A stretch of DNA of 43,063 nt from Patescibacteria group bacterium (GTDB lineage Bacteria > Patescibacteriota > Patescibacteriia > JAGPKW01): assembly GCA_021734125.1 (NCBI GenBank), contig JAIPJN010000003.1, positions 1 through 43,063 on the forward strand. The letters run 5' to 3'. The stretch's first letter is position 1, and every line of letters starts with the position of its first letter. The notes under the pieces were generated by a model, which was not told the origin of the DNA, searched no databases, and saw only the letters and a list, made by a program, of their open reading frames with translations. Both the position numbers and the translations under genes were made by a program. Shown here in pieces: positions 2,730 to 30,770 of the stretch.

Positions 2730-4520
2730 ATGGACACAAATAGTTCTCAAAACAGAAATCAAAAAAATATTTCTGAAAATAAAAAAACATTAAGAAGACC
2801 CACAAAAGGAAAATCTTCTTACAAAAGAAAAATATACGATCTAAGAAATACACCAAAAGATACCCTAGTTTCTTTTTCACTTGGTGGACAAGAAGAAGTT
2901 GGTATAAATATGATTGGATATAAATATAATGATGATATTATTTTTATAGACATGGGATTAGAATTCCCAGATGAAGAAATGCTTGGTGTTGATTATATAA
3001 TTCCAGATATAACTCCTCTTAGAGGTTTAGAAAAAAATATTAAAGGAATTTATATAACTCATGGACATTATGATCATATAGGAGCAATACCTCATCTTAT
3101 AGATAAACTTGGAAATCCAAAAATATATGGATTAAAACTTACTATAGGAATGATTAAAAAAAGACAAGAAGAATTTAGAGTTAAATCAAAACCTAATTTC
3201 ATTGAAATTGATATTGATGATACTTTAAAATTAGGAGTTTTTAAATTAAGTTTTATAAGAGCTTCTCATAATATTCCTGATAGTTCTATGGTTATAATAG
3301 ATAGCCCAGTAGGAAAAATAATACACACAGGAGATTATAAATTTGATATGACTCCAGTTGATTTTAATGAGACTGAAATACATAAAATAGCAGCCTTACA
3401 TAATCAAAAAGTATTAGCATTATATGCAGATAGTACAAATGCAGATCAACCTGGGCATCAAATTTCAGAACTTAAGGTTGAAAAAAGTATTAGAGAGCTT
3501 TTTACTAAAGCAGAAGGAAGAATAATTATTGGAACATTCGCTTCCCTATTATCTCGTATACAACAAATTATTAAGGTTTCTGAAGAATTAGGAAAGAAGG
3601 TAGTTATAGATGGTAGAAGTATGAAAAATAATGTAGCAATAGCCCATGAACTTGGATATTTAAAATATAAAAGAGGAACAATCATAGAATATAAAGATAT
3701 GGGAAGATATCCTGATAATAAGATTGTAGTAGCGTGTACAGGAGCACAAGGTGAAGACAGGGCTGTGCTTATGAGAATTGCTAATAATGAACATAGACAA
3801 ATTAGAATTCAAAAAGGAGATACAGTAGTTTTTAGTTCATCAGTTATTCCTGGTAATGAAAGATCAGTTCAAAAGTTAAGAGATTCTTTATATAAACATC
3901 ATGCAAATGTAATTAATTATACTATGATGGATATACATGCTGGAGGACATGCAAAACAAGAAGATATTAAACTCTTAATTAAATTAATAAATCCTAAATT
4001 TTATGTTCCAATTTATGGAACTCACACCCATCTTAAATTAAATGCTGAAGTTGCAGAAGAAACAGGTATTTTAAAAGAAAATATATTTACACCGTTTAAT
4101 GGACAACTTTTAGAGTTTAATAAAAGAGAAGAAGCTAAAATAGCAGAAAGTAAATTATATTTAAATAATATTTTAGTTGATGGTTTAGGTATTGGGGATG
4201 TTTCTGGTATAGTTCTAAGAGATAGAAAACAAATGTCTGAGCATGGAATGATAGTTATAATATCTACTATAAAAATGTCAACAGGAGATCTTGTAGGAAA
4301 TCCAGATATTATTTCGAGAGGTTTTATATATATGAATGCAAATAAAAAATTAGTTGAGGATATTAGAACAAAAGTAAAAGAAACGCTAAAAGATTCTGAT
4401 CCTTTGACTCCAGCAAACCAATCTTATATAAAAGATAAAGTAAGAGAAGATATAACAAAATTTATATATAAAAGAACCCATAGAAATCCTATGGTTCTTC
4501 CAGTTATATTACTTATGTAA
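2730..4520 (+). CDS. rnj: Ribonuclease J (metallo-beta-lactamase / beta-CASP)
   Basis: A 596-residue RNase J. These enzymes combine 5'-3' exoribonuclease and endonuclease activity in mRNA turnover and rRNA maturation. The zinc-binding signature HGHYDH is at residues 111-116, with SHNIPDSSM and the metal-binding HTGDYKFD further on. The beta-CASP segment carries ADSTNAD and later YGTHTHL. The C-terminal domain ends near the usual family length. Residues 1-40 are a lysine/serine-rich, probably disordered extension. The stop overlaps the uvrB start (TAATG), so the two genes are translationally coupled. No Shine-Dalgarno site is visible before the ATG. Confidence 0.95.
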   Translation: MDTNSSQNRNQKNISENKKTLRRPTKGKSSYKRKIYDLRNTPKDTLVSFSLGGQEEVGINMIGYKYNDDIIFIDMGLEFPDEEMLGVDYIIPDITPLRGLEKNIKGIYITHGHYDHIGAIPHLIDKLGNPKIYGLKLTIGMIKKRQEEFRVKSKPNFIEIDIDDTLKLGVFKLSFIRASHNIPDSSMVIIDSPVGKIIHTGDYKFDMTPVDFNETEIHKIAALHNQKVLALYADSTNADQPGHQISELKVEKSIRELFTKAEGRIIIGTFASLLSRIQQIIKVSEELGKKVVIDGRSMKNNVAIAHELGYLKYKRGTIIEYKDMGRYPDNKIVVACTGAQGEDRAVLMRIANNEHRQIRIQKGDTVVFSSSVIPGNERSVQKLRDSLYKHHANVINYTMMDIHAGGHAKQEDIKLLIKLINPKFYVPIYGTHTHLKLNAEVAEETGILKENIFTPFNGQLLEFNKREEAKIAESKLYLNNILVDGLGIGDVSGIVLRDRKQMSEHGMIVIISTIKMSTGDLVGNPDIISRGFIYMNANKKLVEDIRTKVKETLKDSDPLTPANQSYIKDKVREDITKFIYKRTHRNPMVLPVILLM

Positions 4521-11069: not shown

Positions 11070-11777
11070 ATGAAAAAAATAATGATAATTTTACCAGTAT
11101 TTATTTTACTGAACGCATCATTATTTGCTTTTGGACTTGATATGGAGTATCAAAATTTTAATTTACTGGAAGAAAAAAAAGAAAAGGGGGTTTTAAACAT
11201 TGAAATAAATCAAAGTATTCCTATTACTGAAAATTTTGGAACAGAATTTATAATAAACTTTAATCCAATATTTTTAGATGATTCTGAAGTTATTTTAGAT
11301 AAAAATTTTCAATTTACTGGAAGTATATCTTATAAAGATATTCTTTTTTATTTTAAAAAAGATATTAAAGAATATTTAAAAATAATAGGAATACAAAAAA
11401 AATATTCTCAATACAAAAAAATGGGAATAGAATTTTTACTTCCATATAATCATTACTCTTATGAAAATAATTCTATATATTTGAATAAAAATAAAGCTGT
11501 TATTTTTATAATAGAAGATCAATTTTTCAAAAATAATGAAAATTTTAGTATTTTTATAAAAGAGAAATTAAAATTTGAAGAAATAAATTCTTATGTAAAA
11601 AATGAAAATTATAACGAATTTATTAATTCTAAAATAGATATTTCTATTCAAAATAAAATAGGAGTCCAAAGCGGTTATTTTAATTGTGGAGTTTTAAATA
11701 CAATTAATATTAATACTCCATTAAAAACAAAATTAGATTTTAATGATTCAAAATTATTTGTAGGATTTAAATTCTAA
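11070..11777 (+). CDS. Unknown exported protein
   Basis: I do not recognise this 235-residue protein. Residues 1-20 form a classical signal peptide (MKK, a hydrophobic core, then a small-residue region NASLFA). The mature part alternates hydrophobic and charged residues with many lysines and aromatic residues, which suggests a beta-rich fold. No cysteine pair or lipobox is visible. The start is firm: AGGAGG lies five bases before ATG, a promoter stands upstream and a terminator follows. A four-base-loop hairpin abutting the ribosome-binding site could control access to it. The neighbours (gltX, rmlD) face the other way, so it is a stand-alone unit. Confidence 0.75.
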   Translation: MKKIMIILPVFILLNASLFAFGLDMEYQNFNLLEEKKEKGVLNIEINQSIPITENFGTEFIINFNPIFLDDSEVILDKNFQFTGSISYKDILFYFKKDIKEYLKIIGIQKKYSQYKKMGIEFLLPYNHYSYENNSIYLNKNKAVIFIIEDQFFKNNENFSIFIKEKLKFEEINSYVKNENYNEFINSKIDISIQNKIGVQSGYFNCGVLNTININTPLKTKLDFNDSKLFVGFKF

Positions 11778-20800: not shown

Positions 20801-20875
20801 GCACTCATAGTTTAATGGATAAAACATAGGATTGCGGTTCCTAAGATAGAGGTTCGATTCCTCTTGAGTGTACCA
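20801..20875 (+). tRNA. tRNA-Arg (anticodon GCG)
   Basis: The cloverleaf has acceptor GCACTCA/TGAGTGT (G-U first pair), D arm GTTT/AAAC, anticodon arm TAGGA-TTGCGGT-TCCTA and T arm AGAGG/CCTCT. The discriminator is A, with encoded CCA. The anticodon is an unmodified-type GCG, reading CGC and CGT, not the ACG (inosine) form found in most bacteria. Confidence 0.93.
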
Positions 20876-20892
20876 AATTAAAATATTTAATA

Positions 20893-20933
20893 AAAAAAGG
20901 AGCCGAATTTAAGTTTTTTTACTTAAATCCGGC
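20893..20933 (-). terminator. Terminator of the 132-residue unknown
   Basis: On the minus strand GCCGGATTTAAGT pairs with ACTTAAATTCGGC over 13 bases, followed by TCC and seven T. One pair is G-U on the minus strand but A-C on the plus strand, which shows the RNA is read from the minus strand. Confidence 0.88.
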
Positions 20934-20958
20934 ATATTTTGGTTATTCTGAACCACAG

Positions 20959-21028
20959 GAAAATTATTTTATGGCTAATAATTTTCAGTTAAACCTCCTA
21001 GACAGTATCACCAGTATAATACTTCTAG
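20959..21028 (-). other. 3' untranslated region with two further hairpins
   Basis: Between the ORF stop and the terminator lie two stems: CTAGA.AGTAT/ATACT.TCTAG (20998-21028) and a ten-base GAAAATTATT/AATAATTTTC (20959-20986, eight-base loop). An AGGAGG lies between them on the minus strand, but I see no ATG, GTG or TTG frame of useful length after it. Confidence 0.6.
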
Positions 21029-21045
21029 AATCACCTTTTTCAAAT

Positions 21046-21444
21046 TTACCAGATTAAGGTAAATTGATCAGATGCCACCTTTTCAGATGGTCTGGAGCGC
21101 TGAGTCTCCGGAGTAGCATTATATGCTACCATCTTCCCTTTAGGTAAATCAGCAAATTGATCTACTAAAGTTGAAAAAAGTGCAGGAACTAGGACAAAAT
21201 CCACGTCCTTTCGAGATAGAATCTCTGAAAGAACGGATTTTCCTTCTTCCTCTAAAACCTTTTTAAAGGTTATTAGAGAAAAAAGTCCTTTTTGTCCAAT
21301 TTTTTCGCTCTCATTTTTGAGAGTAAAAAACTGAACAAGTTCCTTGGAACAAGGTCCTACTTCTTCCCCAGTCCAAAACATTGTTGGATGTGGAGAGAGG
21401 GAGACGATCCTCATTCCGGCAACCACTGAAATATTTAATTCCAT
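21046..21444 (-). CDS. Unknown 132-residue protein of atypical composition
   Basis: I do not recognise this protein. It reads as a compact alpha/beta protein: an N-terminal strand (MELNISVVAGMRIVSL), a central helix rich in K/E (FKKVLEEEGKSVLSEIL), the strand DVDFVLVPALF, and a polar C-terminus. No signal peptide or membrane segment is visible. Its codons (CTC, GTC, CGG, CCC) and GC content are visibly unlike the surrounding genes. GGAGG lies five bases before ATG. It has a near-consensus promoter, a leader built of three consecutive hairpins and a strong terminator, so expression seems high or controlled. It sits beside tRNA-Arg, a common insertion point, but I found no flanking att-like repeat. 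It could be acquired DNA. Confidence 0.7.
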   Translation of the reverse strand: MELNISVVAGMRIVSLSPHPTMFWTGEEVGPCSKELVQFFTLKNESEKIGQKGLFSLITFKKVLEEEGKSVLSEILSRKDVDFVLVPALFSTLVDQFADLPKGKMVAYNATPETQRSRPSEKVASDQFTLIW

Positions 21445-21535
21445 AGTTGCCTCCTTTTTTTTAAAATATTATCTTTAATATAGACTGGCTATATAAGATA
21501 AACGACCCAACGGGCCGATAGTTTTTAAAAACTAT
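21445..21535 (-). promoter_or_regulatory. Structured 5' leader of the 132-residue unknown
   Basis: From the predicted start (about 21535) the leader is almost all stems. ATAGTTTTTAAAAACTAT (21518-21535) is followed by CGGCCC..GGGTCG (21503-21517). A long stem TTATCTT-ATATAG/CTATAT-AAGATAA (21469-21501) ends just before the A-run and GGAGG. This could be a cis-regulatory RNA or a 5' protective structure. Confidence 0.55.
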
Positions 21536-21541
21536 ATAAAT

Positions 21542-21570
21542 ACTATAACATATTTTATACAAAATGTCAA
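21542..21570 (-). promoter_or_regulatory. Promoter of the 132-residue unknown
   Basis: On the minus strand TTGACA, a 17-base spacer and TATAGT. This is one of the best matches to the sigma-70 consensus in the window. Confidence 0.85.
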
Positions 21571-21641
21571 TGTATTTTGATAATATGTATGGAGATATGG
21601 TGGATTTTTATATAAAATAACATTAATTATAAAAATTGGTA

Positions 21642-21663
21642 GGAACGCGCCGTGGCACGTTCC
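21642..21663. repeat. Palindrome family B, one mismatch
   Basis: GGAACGCGCC..GGCACGTTCC with GTA/TAC flanks. Confidence 0.88.
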
Positions 21664-21692
21664 TACATGAATTGTGAAATTTCAAATTAAAC

Positions 21693-21711
21693 GGGCGTAT
21701 AATATGCGCCC
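21693..21711. repeat. Palindrome, variant of family A (GGGCGTATA core)
   Basis: GGGCGTATA-A-TATGCGCCC, a changed core in the family A frame with one wobble pair. It is preceded by AAATTAAAC, as is the chimera at 21860. Confidence 0.8.
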
Positions 21712-21798
21712 GATAAATAAAATATTAAAATATAATTTATAAAAAATATATATAAAAAATGTGCGTAATTTTATTAAATAACATTAATAAAATTAAAT

Positions 21799-21817
21799 GG
21801 GCGCACAATGTGCGCCC
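21799..21817. repeat. Palindrome family A, inverted copy
   Basis: GGGCGCACA-A-TGTGCGCCC followed by CTACATGAATTG. This is the reverse orientation of the copy at 225. Confidence 0.9.
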
Positions 21818-21859
21818 CTACATGAATTGTGAAATAAAACGATAATTTTTAAATTAAAC

Positions 21860-21899
21860 GGGCGCACGCTTTTCGTGGAAAGCGCCGTGGCGCGTTCCC
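21860..21899. repeat. Chimera of half family A and half family B
   Basis: GGGCGCAC is followed by GCTTTTCGTGGAAAGC and then GCCGTGGCGCGTTCCC, the centre and right arm of family B. Confidence 0.8.
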
Positions 21900-22025
21900 A
21901 CATGAATTGTTAAATAAAATAATAAAAATACACATTAAAATTACATACATTTTTTATATAAAAATATTAACAATTTATGATATACTGTAAAATAATAAAA
22001 TAAAATTAAAATTAATTTGAAACAA

Positions 22026-27854: not shown

Positions 27855-27880
27855 TTAAAACGATAATTTTTAAACAACGT

Positions 27881-27904
27881 GGGAACGCGCCGTGGCGCGT
27901 TCCC
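27881..27904. repeat. Palindrome family B, long copy
   Basis: GGGAACGCGCC..GGCGCGTTCCC with GT/AC outer bases, giving pairing over 13 bases per arm. It lies about 25 bases after the helicase stop and may act as its terminator. Confidence 0.9.
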
Positions 27905-27954
27905 ACATGAATTGTGAATAAATATTATTTTAATTATGATTAAATATATTGTAG

Positions 27955-27973
27955 GGGCGCACATTGTGCGCCC
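27955..27973. repeat. Palindrome family A
   Basis: GGGCGCACA-T-TGTGCGCCC preceded by TTGTAG, in the same orientation as the copy at 225. Confidence 0.9.
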
Positions 27974-28077
27974 GCAAATAAAACATGAATTGTAAAATAA
28001 AACAATATTTTAAAATAAAACGTATATAAAATCATGTATAAAAAAACATGCAAATTTATATAAAATCATTCACAAAA

Positions 28078-29596: not shown

Positions 29597-29603
29597 AAAT
29601 GTA

Positions 29604-29637
29604 AAATACACCCTATATTAAAAGAGTGTATTTTTTT
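29604..29637. terminator. Two-way terminator between convergent genes
   Basis: Stem AAATACAC/GTGTATTT with an imperfect inner part. Seven T follow on the plus strand and a T-rich run on the minus strand. It serves the 291-residue gene and the 42-residue gene. Confidence 0.78.
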
Positions 29638-29642
29638 AATTT

Positions 29643-29771
29643 TTAGTTTTCTTTTTCTTTTTCTTTCCTTATTTTTAAAGCTTGTTTATATCTCCTTCTC
29701 TTTTTTTTTCTAAAAATCCACATCCTTATTTTCCACTTTATTTTTTTAGGAAAAATTTTATAAATATCCAT
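29643..29771 (-). CDS. Small very basic protein (42 residues), not in ORF track
   Basis: A 42-codon frame with GGAGG five to six bases before ATG, a TTGACA promoter and a terminator at the end. The product is rich in lysine and arginine (MDIYKIFPKKIKWKIRMWIF, then RKKKRRR and a K/E tail). It would suit RNA or membrane-surface binding. It is not recognised. Low-complexity AT-rich DNA can give chance frames, but the full set of expression signals argues for a real gene. Confidence 0.65.
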   Translation of the reverse strand: MDIYKIFPKKIKWKIRMWIFRKKKRRRYKQALKIRKEKEKEN

Positions 29772-29804
29772 TTTTACCTCCTTTTCTATTAATTTTAATA
29801 GCTA

Positions 29805-29833
29805 AAAATAACACATAAACAAGAATATGTCAA
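29805..29833 (-). promoter_or_regulatory. Promoter of the 42-residue gene
   Basis: On the minus strand TTGACA, a 17-base spacer and TATTTT. Confidence 0.75.
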
Positions 29834-29845
29834 TATCTTATGTAG

Positions 29846-29864
29846 GGGCGCACATTGTGCGCCC
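29846..29864. repeat. Palindrome family A
   Basis: GGGCGCACA-T-TGTGCGCCC preceded by GTAG, about 12 bases upstream of the -35 of the 42-residue gene. Confidence 0.9.
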
Positions 29865-29907
29865 GTTTAATTTAAAAAATATTATTTTATTTATTAATTG
29901 GATGGGT

Positions 29908-29940
29908 GGAACAGGACGACCAACGTCGTCCTGTTCCTAC
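29908..29940. repeat. Palindrome family C, altered centre
   Basis: Thirteen-base arms GGAACAGGACGAC/GTCGTCCTGTTCC around CAAC, with right flank TAC. The left GTA flank has been replaced by GGT. Confidence 0.9.
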
Positions 29941-30060: not shown

Positions 30061-30390
30061 ATGTTTAATAAACATAAAAAAAGTGTAGGTAAATGTAAAA
30101 CTAAAGAATTTGAACAAGAAATTTTTGGATATAATTACTACATAATAGACGAAAAAAACACTATTAGAATAATCTTCGGAAATTATAAAACAATGTTAAG
30201 AATAGATCAAAAAGTTTATATTTCCAAAGATCAGTTTGAATCTTTACCAGAAGGTCTTCTAGATAGGCAAAAAGTTGTCATAACTAGATTTAGAAAACCT
30301 TCTTATGAAGATCCAACAAATTCAATAGTAGAAGTGAGTTTTAATAATATAAAAAAATGGGTAAAACCTAGCAATATTAAAACTCATTAA
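30061..30390 (+). CDS. Unknown 109-residue protein
   Basis: Not recognised. AAGGAGG lies seven bases before ATG. The sequence is soluble and mixed alpha/beta, with a beta-rich centre (NYYIIDEKNTIRIIFGNYKTMLRI) and basic ends. There is no signal peptide. A terminator follows seven bases after the stop. It sits among other short SD-led unknowns. A 12-codon frame overlaps its start, but I do not consider it a gene. Confidence 0.7.
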   Translation: MFNKHKKSVGKCKTKEFEQEIFGYNYYIIDEKNTIRIIFGNYKTMLRIDQKVYISKDQFESLPEGLLDRQKVVITRFRKPSYEDPTNSIVEVSFNNIKKWVKPSNIKTH

Positions 30391-30430: not shown

Positions 30431-30450
30431 AAAATTTTTGAAATAATAAA

Positions 30451-30606
30451 TTAAAAAAATAAAGGACAGTTTTTAGTTCCGTATGAAGGACAGTTTTTTG
30501 CTTTTACACAAAAATCTTTTTTTCTGTCTTCTTCAGGAAATTCACCTTTTGGTGGAAAATCCGGAGCTTGAAAAAACTCCCTGATTTTAAAAAGTATTTT
30601 TTTCAT
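30451..30606 (-). CDS. Small cysteine-containing protein (51 residues), not in ORF track
   Basis: A 51-codon frame with AGGAGG six bases before ATG and a promoter (TTGACC-17-TATAAA). The N-terminus is a basic helix (MKKILFKIREFF), followed by a proline-rich linker and a C-terminal block with three cysteines, CVKAKNCPSYGTKNCP. The block could bind a metal or form disulphides. It is not recognised. It faces the 109-residue gene, and the terminator between them also has a short A-run on the other side, so it may serve both. Confidence 0.7.
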   Translation of the reverse strand: MKKILFKIREFFQAPDFPPKGEFPEEDRKKDFCVKAKNCPSYGTKNCPLFF

Positions 30607-30635
30607 TTCTTCCTCCTATAAAATTTTCTATAACA

Positions 30636-30664
30636 TTTATACATTAATTTAAATAAAAGGTCAA
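30636..30664 (-). promoter_or_regulatory. Promoter of the 51-residue gene
   Basis: On the minus strand TTGACC, a 17-base spacer and TATAAA. Confidence 0.75.
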
Positions 30665-30720
30665 TATCCTTAAAATAAAGATGCAATTTTATATAATAAC
30701 ATCAATTTTTTAAATCAAAT

Positions 30721-30770
30721 GGAACGCGCCACGGCGCGTTCCCACATTCATAATATGCGTTCCCACATGT
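30721..30770. repeat. Palindrome family B with an extra right half
   Basis: GGAACGCGCC-AC-GGCGCGTTCC (30721-30742) is followed by CACATTCATAATATGC and a second GTTCCCACATG, as if the right end had been duplicated. Confidence 0.8.

Follow-up and report, generated by a model that had tools for sequence, protein, structure and literature searches.

Background

Stem-loops in 5' leaders of the ompA type stabilize bacterial mRNAs. Ordinary bacterial coding regions fold barely above chance. In E. coli, abundant mRNAs have more structure than scarce mRNAs do, and cleavage by RNase E occurs at unpaired A/U-rich sites (PMC4619774); an E. coli array study, in the portion quoted in the same paper, found computed structure to be no predictor of mRNA abundance. 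In the GORS of positive-strand RNA viruses, for which phage MS2 served as our yardstick, local stem-loops occur throughout the coding sequence beyond what composition and codon usage provide. Obelisk RNAs combine self-paired ORFs with hammerheads (PMC13096302).

The window, which is the whole stretch of DNA analysed, comprises 43,063 nt of contig JAIPJN010000003.1 (assembly GCA_021734125.1) from a Patescibacteria group bacterium, and has an overall GC content of 0.235. It contains a single-gene transcription unit whose message is predicted to fold from end to end. We know of no description, among open papers in PubMed Central, of cellular mRNAs folded in this way.

Organization of the unit

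The unit lies on the minus strand and consists of a promoter, leader stems, a GGAGG, a 132-codon ORF, two trailer stems and a terminator with a U-run. Its features, with the adjoining tRNA gene for context, are as follows.

21571..21640, minus strand: upstream block with 76-81% identity (promoter included) to two other units of this genome, on contigs C26 and C22
21565..21570, minus strand: -35 hexamer TTGACA; the promoter core is also found at C26, C22 and C16
21542..21547, minus strand: -10 hexamer TATAGT, after a 17-nt spacer
21469..21535, minus strand: leader with three consecutive predicted stems (21535-21518, 21517-21503 and 21501-21469)
21450..21454, minus strand: Shine-Dalgarno (SD) sequence GGAGG, five bases 5' of the ATG, read from the sequence
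21418..21451, minus strand: predicted hairpin enclosing the start codon and the 3' end of the SD
21046..21444, minus strand: CDS for the 132-aa protein P0001, its mRNA a predicted chain of hairpins; conserved motif DxVLVP...KxVAxNATPETxR
21184..21338, minus strand: tightest folding within the CDS, with predicted hairpins 21338-21292 and 21289-21184
20996..21030, minus strand: predicted trailer hairpin 1 (TTCTAGAAGTATTATACTGGTGATACTGTCTAGGA)
20941..20995, minus strand: predicted trailer hairpin 2 region
20893..20933, minus strand: intrinsic terminator, a 13-bp stem with one G-U pair, then a U-run
20801..20875, plus strand: adjoining tRNA-Arg(GCG) gene, convergent with the unit

The near-consensus promoter (TTGACA-17-TATAGT, 21570-21542) proposed in the initial annotation was recovered with 11/12 matches, among the three best in 20 kb, and the promoter block recurs in the same genome at C26, with weaker copies at C22 and C16. 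Transcription is predicted to start at about 21536, with a leader stem beginning at the predicted first base. The three leader stems and GGAGG, like the two trailer stems and 13-base terminator, were found as that annotation described them. The U-run stops at 20893, leaving 17 bases between it and the convergent tRNA-Arg gene, and the unit sits in chromosomal DNA with this gene on one side and an exonuclease gene on the other.

The leader, previously taken to be the key feature, is not exceptional. Its 92 nt gave a statistically modest z of -2.1, with 9 of 300 shuffles equally low. No Rfam riboswitch or leader family scored above threshold at the unit, and its identity as an Rfam riboswitch or sRNA was rejected. 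The entire trailer is exceptional (z -6.6).

The GC-rich codons noted earlier are real: the ORF has a GC of 0.39 and a GC3 of 0.30, compared with about 0.20-0.28 and 0.07-0.14 in most neighbours. A phage-like gene on contig C9 (L046 4236-5021), likely a prophage remnant, has a GC of 0.39 where the genome has about 0.2, and served as the control for composition. Recurrent palindromes form REP-like arrays between many genes of this genome (GGGCGCACATTGTGCGCCC; GGAACGCGCC-GGCGCGTTCC); in the window they lie at 21640-21900, 27880-27980, 29840-29940 and 30720-30745, the first of these adjoining the unit.

The picture of a self-contained unit of odd composition encoding an accessory protein was upheld. 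In two other genera of the same family (G001 and G002) the flippase neighbourhood has neither the tRNA nor any such unit, which marks the unit as accessory.

P0001 and its relative

From its sequence, the ORF reads as a true protein-coding gene, since the SD is correctly spaced, the frame is not open by chance (0/2000 shuffles) and a full-length relative is conserved as protein. P0001 had no match above curated cut-offs or above chance in Pfam, NCBIfam, PHROGs, PADLOC or the PDB, and searches of phages, plasmids and IMG/VR found no relative, the sole weak partial match being to a Rhizobium plasmid (E 0.7). These results bear out the suggestion that the element is undescribed. A YvcK/CofD similarity guessed from the order of the motif was supported by no search. 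Structure prediction, which had also been proposed, was carried out with AlphaFold2 and gave a poor model (pLDDT 36 for P0001 alone, 45 with two sequences). P0001 is a small, cytosolic protein, probably of the alpha/beta type, and belongs to a family that is rare in Patescibacteria.

The proposed protein search found no known family and a single relative among 381 genomes of the class (E 4.8e-5), a 144-aa ORF with no assigned name in Patescibacteria group bacterium STF1_138, which belongs to a different family of the class. Two scans of genome contigs recovered this ORF alone. The two proteins align over residues 7-116 with 30% identity (blastp E 5e-8); their full-length similarity is significant and the motif DxVLVP...KxVAxNATPETxR is common to both. 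The relative is itself strongly folded: of 152 ORFs in the 144 kb of its genome that were sampled, it has the most extreme z (-7.1), although one short ORF there exceeds it in energy ratio. Its GC is 0.485, compared with 0.28 overall in that genome. That P0001 and its relative are both among the most folded of their own genomes is hard to attribute to chance. As the trait is common to the gene and its sole detectable relative, from another family, it is suggested that folding is under selection.

Folding of the message

The strongest anomaly of the unit is its coding region. The predicted MFE of the 644-nt transcript was -234.4 kcal/mol, compared with -145.3 +/- 6.7 for dinucleotide shuffles (z -13.4). 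The CDS alone gave a z of -7 to -9 in repeated runs against dinucleotide shuffles, and of -7.2 and -7.7 against synonymous shuffles, in which protein and codon usage are fixed. By these predictions the message is folded beyond its composition and codon usage. The predicted fold takes in the first base, start codon, coding region and terminator rather than clustering at the 5' end. An earlier suggestion, a dual-function RNA with its information in the leader and trailer, does not agree with folding that spans the whole message, nor with a conserved protein.

By the same measure, 24 E. coli genes had a mean z of -0.4 (minimum -3.2) and two coding stretches of MS2 had z of -6.4 and -5.1; the synonymous z of the E. 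coli ompA coding sequence was -0.6. The ratio of energy to expectation was about 1.5 for the window CDS, 1.3 for MS2 and at most 1.13 for E. coli. Folding was computed throughout and each genome was sampled in part, the window's own genome by 349 kb of stretches that include the window. Among 978 ORFs of at least 100 aa from six genomes, the gene on C26 ranked second by folding, a gene in G001 fourth, the window gene fifth and the STF1_138 relative seventh; top-ranked ORFs of 60-74 aa, which are mostly intergenic palindromes, were set aside. Elsewhere in the window an RNase J-like gene (2730-4520) is unexpectedly folded over its first 700 nt (synonymous z -4.9).

Other folded orphan genes

Further genes, most of them orphans, are folded to differing degrees.

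G000:C26 5347-6066 (L002 1586-2305): P0002, 239-aa exported orphan
Window 30061-30390: 109-aa orphan with an SD and its own terminator
Window 11070-11777: exported orphan in a self-contained unit with a stem before the SD and a terminator (synonymous z -3.4)
L055 11723-12298: exported orphan in a self-contained unit (synonymous z about -5 to -6)
G001 L088 8961-9443: gene of HAD-like appearance, in the same family as the window genome (synonymous z -10.2)
G002 L151 10039-10284: short hyper-folded orphan ORF

The promoter of P0002 is nearly identical to that of the window unit, and the gene is convergent with a 16S rRNA gene. Its message is predicted to form about 25 consecutive near-perfect hairpins, with z of -21.5 (dinucleotide) and -12.0 (synonymous), stronger than in the window unit. 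Scans of genome contigs for relatives of P0002 gave weak partial matches at most. The C26, L055, L088 and L151 units each have their own promoter, a hairpin-rich coding region and a terminator, and those in G001 and G002, two other genera of the family, follow the same plan of promoter and terminator. Where tested, the proteins of these units fell in no recognized family (the L088 gene had no match in Pfam); by the searches made the orphan proteins are unrelated, and P0002 and P0003 appear to be exported. Two other orphans, window 30061-30390 and a gene for a 191-aa exported protein on C26, are hairpin-rich to a lesser extent. The former has the highest fold-over-expectation ratio of the 978 ORFs (1.93), its absolute folding energy being low because of its low GC.

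The claim that nothing else in the window has a comparable leader or trailer was correct in that the trailer is exceptional; it went too far in that both 30061-30390 and 11070-11777 have terminators, the latter with its stem before the SD. Two tiny ORFs with an SD and a promoter-like TTGACA or TTGACC site also lie on the minus strand of the window (29600-29840 and 30445-30670), the first of them with a terminator.

Across 19 other genomes of the class, sampled for about 290 kb in all, the ratio of well-folded ORFs peaked at 1.29, and in samples of three more genomes (G131, G170 and G087) at 1.44 (ORFs of at least 100 aa). From this survey, hyper-folding is rare and concentrated in the family of the window genome.

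A hammerhead-like sequence beside the relative

Directly downstream of the STF1_138 unit is an 80-nt sequence resembling a hammerhead.

L059 1105-1184 (rc 2177-2256), JAQVMR010000007.1, minus strand: hammerhead-like 80 nt, from a descriptor scan

Its sequence has a perfect hammerhead core CUGAUGA...GAAA, an NUH site (CUC) and three stems, with a 7-bp stem I, CUGAUGA, stem II, GAAA and a 5-bp stem III. It was the only match to the descriptor in 2.6 Mb, a total over both strands that includes overlapping loci; a further 1.1 Mb gave no match and 4 Mb of shuffles gave none. Rfam hammerhead models do not report it, and the descriptor found nothing at the window unit, C26 or the other units.

Interpretation of the folding

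It is most likely, from the predicted folds, that the genes of the window, C26 and their kin are accessory protein genes whose messages have been selected as RNA for end-to-end folding. We infer selection at the RNA level, and the reason for it is probably mRNA protection or translational control. Codon choice and UTRs would have shaped the window message into local hairpins along its full length. Less surely, the benefit may be a compact, nuclease-resistant and long-lived message in a very AT-rich cell, in which unpaired A/U stretches would be easy targets for endonucleases, with the start codon inside a hairpin as a brake or switch on translation. Taken jointly, a monocistronic accessory gene whose message evolved by RNA-level selection to fold end to end, as protection or as a translational brake, has about an even chance of being correct. 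Against it stands the E. coli array study cited above; strong structure would also be expected to hinder translation, as would the SDs of the C26 and G001 genes, which are predicted to be mostly paired.

RNA-level selection is favoured by an excess of G-T wobbles and by stronger folding of the sense strand under dinucleotide shuffles. Counted over the stems of the three main units (window, C26 and STF1_138), G-T wobbles number 35 and A-C wobbles 10 (P = 0.003 against composition). Sense and antisense z were -7.2 and -5.5 for the window CDS and -21.5 and -14.7 for the C26 gene. The strand test is not uniform, since under synonymous shuffles the C26 antisense strand is as extreme as the sense strand (-14.2 and -12.0). 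For covariation there are two homologues, at 30% identity.

The folding might instead be mainly regulatory, with hairpins at the SD and start codon, leader stems and coding hairpins forming an RNA switch or ribosome-pacing device that sets the amount of protein. In the model the SD and start region is paired in C26 (unpaired probability 0.19) and G001 L088 (0.09) and half paired in the window unit, where the start codon lies inside a hairpin, and a promoter core is common to four units of the genome. However, the folding covers the entire CDS and trailer rather than chiefly the 5' end, the leader alone is weak and Rfam offers no riboswitch or leader family at threshold, so that a mainly regulatory role is possible but unlikely.

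A DNA-level or mutational origin is doubtful to a greater degree. The hairpins would then be cruciforms used in recombination or uptake, or products of foldback (template-switch) mutations that make genes from palindromes. It is consistent with the palindrome array next to the unit, with the orphan status of the genes and with the well-folded antisense strand. Yet the bias of 35:10 for G-T over A-C wobbles is in the RNA sense, codon choice is tuned around a conserved protein, and a 30%-identical relative from another family still has the trait, at a distance where foldback palindromes should have decayed.

An origin of the units in an RNA replicon or an RNA-mobile element resembling a viroid, an obelisk or an RNA phage, later converted into a DNA copy and supplied with a promoter, is very improbable. 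Folding that exceeds that of MS2 and the perfect-core hammerhead-like sequence after the STF1_138 locus would suit such an origin, given the pairing of self-paired ORFs with hammerheads in obelisks (PMC13096302). Against this, the units carry sigma70-type promoters, SDs and terminators, their fold is local with no rod, the hammerhead is absent at the window, C26 and other units, and Rfam hammerhead models are silent on the STF1_138 sequence. We give just as little credence to a related version, in which the units, now carried as DNA, descend from or are related to a self-processing RNA element, forming a rare mobile class in which RNA is selected too and some members end in a hammerhead.

An ordinary horizontally acquired gene folded by virtue of higher GC alone (0.39 in a window of 0.235, and so foreign-looking) was rejected as barely credible, because dinucleotide and synonymous shuffles that keep composition still leave z at -7 or below, the phage-like gene of GC 0.39 in the same genome is weakly folded and GC3 is uncorrelated with folding in that genome (rho 0.03). 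Hardly more can be said for a structured non-coding RNA with an incidental ORF, which would fit the degree of folding and the shortness of the ORF but not the SD spacing, the frame or the relative conserved at the protein level.

If selection for end-to-end folding of these messages is confirmed in cells, they would provide natural evidence of whole-message folding selection in bacteria and a ready test system for the effects of folding on stability and translation. Confirmation might also tie Patescibacteria genes to ribozyme-bearing RNA elements.

Comparison with known systems

Obelisks and viroid-like RNAs resemble the window unit in their size of about 1 kb, orphan protein and mostly self-paired ORF, and the hammerhead-like sequence at the STF1_138 locus adds to the likeness there. 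They differ in that obelisks are circular RNA replicons without a DNA copy, whereas the window unit is chromosomal, encoded in DNA with transcription signals. The obelisk fold is globally rod-like, while that predicted here is a chain of local hairpins, and the hammerhead present in a subset of obelisks is absent from the window unit.

As in ompA-type mRNAs, a leader stem begins at the predicted first base, and there are trailer and terminator stems. The difference lies in the coding region, which is predicted to be folded in the window unit and is not in E. coli ompA. P0002 on C26 is more folded even than the window gene (z -11 to -21).

The closest parallel in folding is with the GORS of positive-strand RNA viruses. 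In the model, the window CDS likewise has local stem-loops beyond composition and codon controls across the coding region, as strong as in MS2 or stronger. Unlike those viruses, the unit is a single gene of a bacterial chromosome, with a DNA promoter and an intrinsic terminator and with no replicase or capsid gene nearby. RNA-virus-like folding with the protein kept is predicted for a chromosomal protein gene, for its relative from a different family and for a few unrelated genes within the lineage.
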